Assembly: GCA_029882995.1 (NCBI GenBank) | Contig: JAOUJV010000016.1 | Location: 1-35,035, forward strand | Reading direction: 5' to 3' | DNA length: 35,035 nt | Origin: Gammaproteobacteria bacterium | GTDB lineage: Bacteria; Pseudomonadota; Gammaproteobacteria; DAOVJZ01 | Shown: positions 28,734 to 33,767 of the stretch, in pieces | Numbering within the stretch: the stretch's first letter is position 1 | How the letters are laid out: each line of letters begins with the position of its first letter | Made by a program: the position numbers and the translations under genes | Notes under the pieces: generated by a model | Database searches by the model: none | The model's input: the letters and a program-made list of their open reading frames with translations, nothing else | What the model was told of the DNA's origin: nothing

Positions 28734-28787
28734 TTGGCATTGTGTAGAATACCTGCAACATAAAACGCAGTACCGATTATCATCTGA

Positions 28788-29886
28788 ATGTTGGAAATTA
28801 ATCCCATTATCTCCCGAATCAAGGATATGCAAGGGCGCAGTGATGCCCTGAGGGGGTATCTTTGACTTCGATATCAAGCAGGAACGGCTGGTAGAAGTCG
28901 TTCGCGAACTGGAAGACCCTACCGTCTGGAATAATCCCGAACGTGCCCAATCTCTGGGTAAGGAACGAGTTCAGCTGGAAAAAATTGTTGATACCCTGAC
29001 ACAGCTGGGGGAATCTCTGGGTGATGCCAGTGAACTACTGGAAATGGCCGCGGATGAAAACGATCAAAATACCGTTGATGAGATCGTTTCCGATCTGGAC
29101 TCACTGGAGTCTTCTCTGGAAGAGCTGGAATTTCAACGCATGTTTTCCGGTGAAATGGATGCGAACAATGCGTTTCTTGATATTCAGGCCGGTTCCGGCG
29201 GTACCGAAGCACAGGACTGGGCCAATATGTTACTGCGCATGTTTTTGCGTTGGGGTGAGCGCCGCGGTTTTAAAACTGAATTAATGGAAGTCTCTGACGG
29301 GGAAGTGGCGGGCATCAAAAGTGCCACCATTCGGTTTGAGGGTGAGTATGCCTATGGCTGGCTCAGAACAGAAACCGGTGTACATCGTCTGGTACGCAAA
29401 TCACCTTTTGATTCCGGTAACCGTCGTCATACATCATTTGCGTCGGTCTTTGTTTCTCCCGAGATTGATGATGATATAGATATCGAGATCAATCCGGCCG
29501 ATTTACGCATTGATGTCTATCGTGCCAGTGGTGCCGGTGGTCAGCATGTAAACCGGACTGAATCAGCAGTACGCATCACGCACGCACCGAGTGGAATCGT
29601 GGTACAGTGTCAAAACGATCGCTCGCAACACAAGAACAAGGATCAGGCCATGAAGCAGTTAAAGGCCAAGTTGTATGAGCTGGAAATGCAAAAACGGCGT
29701 TCGGAATCAGATGCAGTTGAAGAATCCAAGGCGGACATTGGCTGGGGCAGTCAGATTCGATCCTATGTGCTTGATCAATCGCGCATCAAGGATTTGCGTA
29801 CCAATGTAGAAACCGGAAATACTCAGGCCGTGCTGGATGGCGATCTGGATCAGTTTATTGAAGCAAGCTTGAAGTCGGGTTTGTAA
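28788..29886 (+). CDS. prfB: Peptide chain release factor 2 (programmed +1 frameshift)
   Basis: Releases finished proteins at UGA and UAA codons. Frame 1 runs from the ATG at 28788 (M-L-E-I-N-P-I-I) through 25 codons to an in-frame TGA at 28863-28865. A +1 shift on CTT-TGA-C continues from 28864 to the stop at 29886, giving 365 residues, the same as E. coli RF2. The anticodon-like S-P-F tripeptide lies in R-K-S-P-F-D-S-G, and the catalytic G-G-Q in [10 protein letters not shown] simple ORF scan would miss about 85 N-terminal residues. It starts 54 bases after recJ. Confidence 0.96.
28851..28866 (+). promoter_or_regulatory. prfB autoregulatory +1 frameshift site
   Basis: AGGGGGTATCTTTGAC contains the internal Shine-Dalgarno-like AGGGGG, three bases before the slippery CTT and the UGA stop. 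To my knowledge this is identical to the E. coli element. When RF2 is scarce, ribosomes pause at UGA and slip forward, making more RF2. Confidence 0.97.
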
Positions 29887-31925: not shown

Positions 31926-33767
31926 TCATATTTCATCTCGATAAGTATGGACAATGTCCATAATGCCGTTAAAAATCTTTTCAGCATGTTGTTTCTGTGC
32001 TTTTCTGGTAATACTGTGTTTTGATTCCGGTTTGAGCGTCTGTTCATAGACAAAATTATCTATGATGGCCTGAAAGTCCTCAGGTGAAATCCGGTTGCGA
32101 TATCTTGAAAGCCTCTGGGCGATATAAACCATGGAGTTACCGGTAATTCTGTCATAGCGATTAATAATGGCAGAGCGTTTAGCCATTTTATTTAAAATAG
32201 TAACCGGTTTCTTGTCAGACAGTGTTGCGCAGCGATTAACAAGCCGGGAATAGATTTTCCTGAAGTCAGCGATATGAGTATGTCTTCCGGGAGTAATTAA
32301 CATGTCTTTCTTGCTGGCATATTTACTCTTCATGATTTCAATAAATTCCTTGTCTGAAATATCCTCACCAGCCGCCAGTTTTATCGGGAATTCACGCAAA
32401 ATATCACGCAAACAAAATACCGCATCCCAGGTAATACCATCTTCAACCTTGTGCGGGCCTTTGACAGATTTGACATATTCAAAATAGTTGCAGGCCTTCA
32501 TGAAGTCACGTGTAAGCTTTTTACCTGCAGTATCAGCTAAAAGGGATTTTATCTGGGTAGAATCAAATCCTGTCTTGTAAAGAATGAGTTCGTTTTTTGT
32601 GTTTTCAAAAATACGATCAAAGGATTTAAGTGATTTGTGCTGACTGAATTTCTCGATACTTTTCTTTTTTCCGGTGATCAGAAAATCTGTAATCTGTGCA
32701 AAAGTCTGGATAATATATTTTGCCTTGTTTTTCTGCTCAGTAATGGTTGTTGACATGCGTTCAACATCATCAAATCGATAATCATGATGGAACAGGCCAA
32801 ACTGTCTTACCGAGCCATAGTCGATAATGCCGCAGTCCATCAAAATATTGTCACCATCCCAGTCAAGCCAGCAGAATATATATTCCATTTCAAATCTGGC
32901 GGTAGTACGGGCAAAACTTTCTGTTATTTTTTCAAGGAAGTATTGATAGGTTTCTTTTCTGGATTTGTTTTTTGGCCATTTTTCATTTTTCTTCTGGCGA
33001 TCGATGTAATAATCCACGACCTGTTTTACTCGGGTCAAGTCCCCCTGCTTTATATGATGGAAAAAATGGGCAGGGCGCAGCAGGTTTTTTGATGCGCGCA
33101 CATTGATGGATGTGCTGTCATCAAATGAAATAACAGCCAGTGTACGCTCTGTCGGGATGTCATTTTTATGAAAAATTTCACTCATAATGGTCGTATAGAT
33201 ACCGTCCATTAGATCGGCGAGCCCACAACCATACGAGACGTTTTTGTCACCGGTTTTAAAGAATTTGTTTTGTATTGCAGTGGCAGGGCTTAACGACGTT
33301 GCGCCGGTTCCACAACTGGAGATATCCCATATGCTATTGGTGGTCTCAAAGTAACCATTCCATACACCGCGCCCATCCCCTGATGTGCGACCGGTTTTAT
33401 CCGGGTGTTGCATTTGCAGGTAGCGTGTAGCCATGTATGTTCCATCAAGCTTGTCTTTTTCCGGAACACGGGTTTTATGAATAATATCGTATTCATTAAT
33501 AATCTGGATTGAAAAGGTATCCAGTATGGTTTTGCACAAACCGGCATTGAGTTTTTCAGGATGATTTTTTTGCAGTAGGCCCATTTCTTTTGCCAGTTGG
33601 AAGTTAAAATAAAATACCTTGCCGCCATGACGTTTTTTGGCACCGTAATCAATAAAGCCATCAGGTACAGCCTGTTTGAAAGGATGCTTGCCATTGATGC
33701 GTCTGAAACGTGGATAGTGGGTCGCAGGGGTACGCATTTTTCTGTTTTTACTGGTTACACTGGACAT
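31926..33767 (-). CDS. Divergent SelO-like (YdiU/UPF0061-related) pseudokinase-fold protein, putative protein AMPylator
   Basis: A 613-residue protein without an obvious close family. By eye it aligns with SelO, which transfers AMP from ATP to proteins. R-T-S-G-D-G-R-G (127-134) matches the G-D-G-R-A turn, and E-R-T-L-A-V-I (207-213) the T-T-R-A-L-A-V strand. R224 and R231, seven apart, match the two phosphate-contacting arginines. D-G-D-N-I-L (304-309) with D-Y-G (316-318) gives the ten-residue Asp-to-Asp spacing of the metal site. The position of the ATP-binding lysine (L-K-G-S-G) reads S-C-G-T-G, with Cys152. About 65 N-terminal residues and the C-terminal 200 are unlike typical SelO (about 480-500 residues). 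The gene stands alone, and its ATG follows a perfect TATAAT by 7 bases without a ribosome-binding site. Confidence 0.7.
   Translation of the reverse strand: MSSVTSKNRKMRTPATHYPRFRRINGKHPFKQAVPDGFIDYGAKKRHGGKVFYFNFQLAKEMGLLQKNHPEKLNAGLCKTILDTFSIQIINEYDIIHKTRVPEKDKLDGTYMATRYLQMQHPDKTGRTSGDGRGVWNGYFETTNSIWDISSCGTGATSLSPATAIQNKFFKTGDKNVSYGCGLADLMDGIYTTIMSEIFHKNDIPTERTLAVISFDDSTSINVRASKNLLRPAHFFHHIKQGDLTRVKQVVDYYIDRQKKNEKWPKNKSRKETYQYFLEKITESFARTTARFEMEYIFCWLDWDGDNILMDCGIIDYGSVRQFGLFHHDYRFDDVERMSTTITEQKNKAKYIIQTFAQITDFLITGKKKSIEKFSQHKSLKSFDRIFENTKNELILYKTGFDSTQIKSLLADTAGKKLTRDFMKACNYFEYVKSVKGPHKVEDGITWDAVFCLRDILREFPIKLAAGEDISDKEFIEIMKSKYASKKDMLITPGRHTHIADFRKIYSRLVNRCATLSDKKPVTILNKMAKRSAIINRYDRITGNSMVYIAQRLSRYRNRISPEDFQAIIDNFVYEQTLKPESKHSITRKAQKQHAEKIFNGIMDIVHTYRDEI

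Follow-up and report, generated by a model that had tools for sequence, protein, structure and literature searches.

A remote SelO relative from a gammaproteobacterial genome, lacking the Lys-Glu pair of SelO, probably belongs to a third branch of the SelO superfamily

The stretch of DNA that was analyzed (hereafter the window, 35,035 nucleotides of a gammaproteobacterial contig) carries a gene for a protein whose relation to the AMPylating pseudokinase SelO (YdiU) is firm, and whose predicted active site differs from that of SelO in a consistent way. Judging from the alignment of 92 members of its family, the metal- and phosphate-binding half of the SelO site is kept in all of them, and the Lys-Glu pair that holds ATP in SelO is replaced in all of them. 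On the strength of these comparisons, we favor the reading that within the SelO superfamily the family forms a third branch, next to SelO/YdiU and MchC/MceJ, and consists of probably active metal- and nucleotide-dependent transferases in which the N-lobe half of the triphosphate pocket has been rebuilt.

The gene and its kinship with SelO

The gene lies at positions 31926..33767 of the minus strand and encodes 613 amino acids, as the earlier note on this DNA had described. It starts with ATG, and the reading frame stays open for 12 further codons upstream. Comparison with a copy from the same genus (L003, 81% amino acid identity) yielded a dN of 0.117 with saturated dS, which indicates purifying selection on the window gene. 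The GC content of the gene is 40.6%, versus 45.3% for the window. A convergent CYTH gene (PF01928) is found 23 bp away on one side and an HDOD gene (PF08668) at least 163 bp away on the other (269 bp lie between 33768 and 34036), and lysS is also among the neighbors. The flanking genes, as well as the solitary position of the gene in this genome, agree with what had been reported. No conserved operon was found in the lineage of the window; throughout Gammaproteobacteria the gene stands alone, and neighbors vary among genera. Elsewhere in the window, prfB (release factor 2, 28760-29100, plus strand) is split over two frames, with an in-frame stop after which the gene continues in the next frame; this is the usual programmed +1 frameshift of RF2.

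SelO was the only significant Pfam match of the window protein (PF02696, 33.6 bits against a cut-off of 22.8, E 2.5e-8), with no better match to an unrelated family, and 19 of 31 family members matched the same model at E up to 0.1. The NCBI models for YdiU and SelO were matched only weakly, below their subfamily and equivalog cut-offs (49.3 vs 431 bits and 28.6 vs 900 bits, respectively). Profile-profile comparison against 19 canonical SelO sequences (hhalign) gave a probability of 98.6% (E 8e-16 over 307 columns), in a match that was colinear from the N-terminal FN..LA..LGL motif to beyond DYG; an E of 1e-16 was obtained with the 92 family members. Structure prediction by AlphaFold2 with 31 relatives resulted in a model of the window protein with a pLDDT of 89.9 and a pTM of 0.90. 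When the predicted model was queried against the PDB with Foldseek, nine significant matches were retrieved, all of them SelO/YdiU structures (E 6e-14 to 4e-12, probability 1.0, TM 0.69-0.73 on the target). The next-best PDB match was an ordinary kinase at E 0.05, so that SelO/YdiU was the only PDB family below E 0.001, and comparison with viral kinase-like folds likewise returned nothing below this value. A WhiA LAGLIDADG identity was also considered and rejected (match below cut-off, E 0.07).

The Pfam match, the predicted structure, and the colinear profile-profile alignment together make the SelO relation firm and indicate that the N-terminal region is homologous as well. The proposal that this protein is a remote SelO relative with a SelO kinase-like fold was thus upheld, the fold being that of a predicted model. 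The accompanying claim of a different N-terminal region was not, since residues about 47-126 align with the N-terminus of SelO (hhalign).

The active site and its probable chemistry

P. syringae SelO binds ATP in a flipped orientation, with the gamma-phosphate coordinated by Lys113, which is steadied by Glu136; Arg176 and Arg183 assist, and Asn253 and Asp262 bind the metal (PMC8097203). An orthodox SelO is encoded on another contig of the window genome (485.8 bits), and its numbering was used for a table of positions that compared the 92 family members with 19 SelO sequences.

On the one hand, D94, R96, R179, R186, D255, N256, D265, and Q295 of the genome's SelO are invariant in 19/19 SelO and kept in 92/92 family members. 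In the window protein (all coordinates on the minus strand), GDGR 130-133 (33369..33380) is equivalent to the first SelO GDGR (G93-R96), with D131 and R133 invariant in 92/92; the second of the two SelO GDGR motifs is degraded to YGCGLA. R224 (33096..33098) is the equivalent of the gamma-phosphate ligand R176 of P. syringae SelO and R231 (33075..33077) that of R183, both in 92/92 members, and R231 opens an RPxHF motif common to MchC. D306-N307 (32847..32852) includes the metal-binding Asn (SelO N253) and D316-Y-G (32814..32822) the DFG-type metal ligand (SelO D262), both invariant. The earlier note had drawn attention to R224, R231, D306-N307, D316-Y-G ten residues on, GDGR at 130-133, and ERTLAVI at 207-213. 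All of these positions were verified, and they are not due to chance, as R133, R224, R231, D306, N307, D316, and G318 are found in every one of the 92 relatives. However, the claim that these residues define the SelO site goes too far, because the list leaves out the beta3 Lys and the alphaC Glu, both of which are absent here.

On the other hand, K116, R125, D128, R138, and E139 of the genome's SelO, invariant in 19 SelO, are all replaced in the family. The position of the beta3 Lys (P. syringae K113) is taken by C152 in the window protein (33312..33314) and by Cys in 61, Arg in 21, and Ser in 7 members, but never by Lys. That of the alphaC Glu (E136) is taken by T192 (33192..33194), with Ala in 44, Thr in 30, Ser in 16, and Cys in 2 members, but never Glu; the alphaC register is safe because the stretch is gap-free between the anchors GxG and PTxRxL. 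The 21 rows with Arg at the Lys position form one Bdellovibrionota clade. Cys152 as a catalytic novelty, an idea that came from 29 sequences, failed with 92, in which a whole clade has Arg and others have Ser; what is constant at position 152 across the 92 members is the absence of Lys. R115 (33423..33425) is present in 91/92 members, invariant in MchC (R62), and absent from SelO. An acid (Asp or Glu) occupies position 188 in 90/92; it lies one turn of the helix ahead of the position that has lost its Glu and may be a migrated partner.

Could the family nevertheless act as an orthodox SelO-type AMPylator, transferring AMP from ATP onto protein Ser, Thr, or Tyr, with Arg152 (in one clade), R115, or D/E188 as compensation? 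Neither the metal ligands nor the two gamma-phosphate Arg vary in the family, the acid near the Glu position recurs in 90/92 members, and the Arg at the Lys position in 21/92 members keeps a positive charge, so that the pocket may still grip the gamma-phosphate at position 152. There is also a precedent for a moved lysine in WNK kinases, in which the beta3 Lys is replaced by Cys; no conserved substitute lysine of this kind was identified among the 92 aligned members. Against this reading, the Lys position is Cys in 61/92, the window protein included, and the five N-lobe charged residues have been replaced together. Moreover, there is no functional gap to fill, because a canonical SelO is still encoded in the window genome and in most of the relatives. 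We regard orthodox AMPylation as unlikely, and the "AMPylator branch" suggested in the earlier note was not borne out: the Lys/Glu pair is absent in 92/92 and R125, D128, and R138 of the SelO N-lobe are replaced.

The family has an acid at the position of the kinase HRD Asp (N307 minus 5): D302 in the window protein (32862..32864), Asp in 82, Glu in 9, and Ala in 1 of the members, where SelO has Val or Asn. Phosphotransfer regained on the SelO fold, with D302 serving as base in catalysis and the nucleotide oriented as in ordinary kinases, would fit this acid in 91/92 members together with the retained N and DYG metal ligands. However, kinases also require the Lys-Glu pair, and R224/R231 are kept, the SelO equivalents of which bind the flipped gamma-phosphate, and this explanation appears quite improbable to us. 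Family-specific invariants among the 92 members are E207, H234, K240, W300, D304, and R321. We give little credence to a non-catalytic pseudoenzyme, serving as a nucleotide or metabolite sensor or as a scaffold, for although loss of Lys and Glu is the classic pseudokinase signature and the gene is often solitary, every metal and phosphate ligand is retained across the 92 sequences, and the new polar invariants E207, H234, K240, D304, and R321 speak of enzyme-like constraint. As a whole, the residue pattern does not look like decay and would rather reflect a shifted constraint. The C-terminal Cys tail of SelO is tied to redox control and to NADase activity. An NADase activity like that of human SelO was discarded, since the C-terminal Cys that it requires is missing from the window protein, the tail of which ends in ...HTYRDEI; Cys occurs within the last 6 residues in 15/92 family members vs 19/19 SelO.

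Since half of the ATP site is kept and the Lys-Glu pair that holds ATP is replaced, a chemistry different from that of SelO is probable. In a transferase with a rebuilt N-lobe pocket, the reading that we prefer, ATP or another adenine nucleotide would be bound between the lobes, with a metal held by N307 and D316 and with R133, R224, and R231 also binding, and the gamma-phosphate would be gripped in another way than in SelO, as far as pocket geometry can be derived from the alignment. D302, E207, H234, and K240 are candidate new active-site residues. AMP or another nucleotidyl group might be transferred, with the leaving group held differently or a different donor used, or else a carboxyl or peptide substrate might be activated, a reaction also suspected for MchC/MceJ. 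The substrate would be other than the usual SelO protein hydroxyl.

Distribution and genomic neighbors of the family

A single scan across GTDB genomes retrieved 32 loci from Gammaproteobacteria, Nitrospirota (Manganitrophus), and Bacteriovoracia/Oligoflexia. Profile searches detected the family in 13/369 gammaproteobacterial genomes, 120/241 genomes of Bdellovibrionota (the phylum of a Bacteriovoracaceae MAG), and 6/246 genomes of Nitrospirota (the phylum of Manganitrophus). By sequence, the 92 aligned members make up a separate family that is present in about half of the sampled Bdellovibrionota and sporadic in Gammaproteobacteria and Nitrospirota. A quick tree, rooted at the midpoint only, placed the window copy in a clade of Gammaproteobacteria and some Nitrospirota, with Bdellovibrionota as the deeper branches; with the caution that such a root calls for, this points to a spread from Bdellovibrionota. 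Most carriers also have a canonical SelO, and one 100%-complete carrier (G023) has none. Broken or frameshifted copies were observed as well (L088-L090 and L034, of G088; L032/L033; and L028, the last from a complete Manganitrophus chromosome). An origin from phages or plasmids was rejected, as no relative was found in phages or IMG/VR and plasmids yielded only SelO-like matches of about 25% identity. PADLOC defence models gave no match. Neither Pfam nor NCBI was found to have a model of its own for the family, and no description of it was found in the literature searched, which covers few subscription journals, so that an earlier account is possible. The family is apparently undescribed, and its novelty is one of sequence and predicted structure.

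In 17 Bdellovibrionota loci of the Bacteriovoracia type, a gene for a serine peptidase of the S51 family follows on the same strand, as a conserved pair within one clade, with a 4-nt overlap in most (L014, L022, L024, L025, L030, L152-L156, L158, and L170-L172, and also L015, L179, and L180). It is divergently adjacent in two further loci (L167 and L174), one of them from Nitrospirota. The partner matches PF03575 at 80-100 bits and has conserved GLSAG and H residues; among solved structures, Asp-dipeptidases and cyanophycinase come closest to it. MccG, an S51 enzyme, cleaves an isoaspartyl-nucleotide (PMC9239234). This S51 type (>200 bits) was present in 10/80 genomes tested, all 10 of which carry the family, and was adjacent or near in nine. 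In the window genome, no S51 gene adjoins the family gene; a distant S51 peptidase is encoded far from it (G000:C16:4550-5137, 121 bits). Another neighbor, gene cluster c4, which encodes a conserved, unclassified protein of ~390 aa, is often located just upstream in the Arg152 clade (L141-L149, L160-L166, L177) as part of a larger syntenic block. It has no Pfam or PDB match, and by eye resembles an ATP-grasp ligase.

Comparison with MchC/MceJ, SelO, and other systems

MchC/MceJ is a known distant SelO subfamily (PMC3281104), and MceJ, together with MceI, joins salmochelin to microcin E492 at the Ser that forms the C-terminus of the latter (PMC6071977). A profile of E. coli Nissle MchC and six plasmid relatives (seven sequences) matched our family at 97.7% (E 1.6e-12) and SelO at 96.6% (E 5.6e-10), that is, about equally. 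With a single sequence no match to the family had been found. Membership in MchC was rejected on residues, as the family is without the Lys and the Glu. Wider sampling of MchC in Gammaproteobacteria genomes added nothing. Nissle MchC itself has no Pfam match to SelO, its kinship being visible only by profile-profile comparison, and the MchC proteins L075:20652-22202, L182, and L186 carry the product name "hypothetical protein".

Kinship with MchC and the pairing with S51 weakly suggest that a peptide or amino-acid carboxylate may be modified, and that in some lineages the co-encoded S51 peptidase may reverse or process this modification. It would be a long shot to go further and see here a new class of SelO-fold enzymes that lack Lys-Glu and use a nucleotide to activate a carboxylate or peptide, and that in Bdellovibrionota team up with the translationally coupled S51 serine peptidase, the two making and breaking an (iso)peptide or peptide-nucleotide.

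SelO set the precedent that a "dead" kinase fold can act as a nucleotide transferase. The present family drops the next pillar, the Lys-Glu pair, yet the rest of its active site is frozen in 92 sequences from three phyla, which amounts to a natural experiment on the catalytic needs of the SelO fold. As SelO and a paralogue from this family co-occur in one genome, the difference between them is directly testable. The family also links SelO to the microcin-maturation enzymes of the MchC type, the chemistry of which is also unsettled.

Among known systems, peptidases of the S51 type (PepE, cyanophycinase, MccG) are genomic neighbors of some members and not homologues. WNK kinases show the same kind of beta3 Lys substitution but belong to another branch of the kinase fold. 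MchC resembles the family, and differs from SelO, in the R-Y pair (R62/R115) and in RPxHF after the second Arg (R166-P-A-H-F in MchC), and it has the metal Asn in common with the family, as well as the Asp of DF. Unlike the family, it keeps the Lys, which belongs to a conserved K-G-I-G, and the Glu (K86/E115) in 7/7 sequences, as it does both Arg, the Asn, and the Asp; since SelO and MchC both keep the pair, the simplest account is that the window family lost it secondarily. MchC also has SSN in place of WDGDN, and its genes adjoin an HlyC-like acyltransferase and microcin/export genes, none of which lies near the window gene. SelO/YdiU (PF02696; NF000658), at about 495 aa compared with the 613 aa of the window protein, has HGVMNTDN where the family has W-L/M-D/E-W-D-G-D-N, and shares with it the fold, the colinear core, GDGR, and the equivalents of R176/R183, TDN, DYG, and Gln295.
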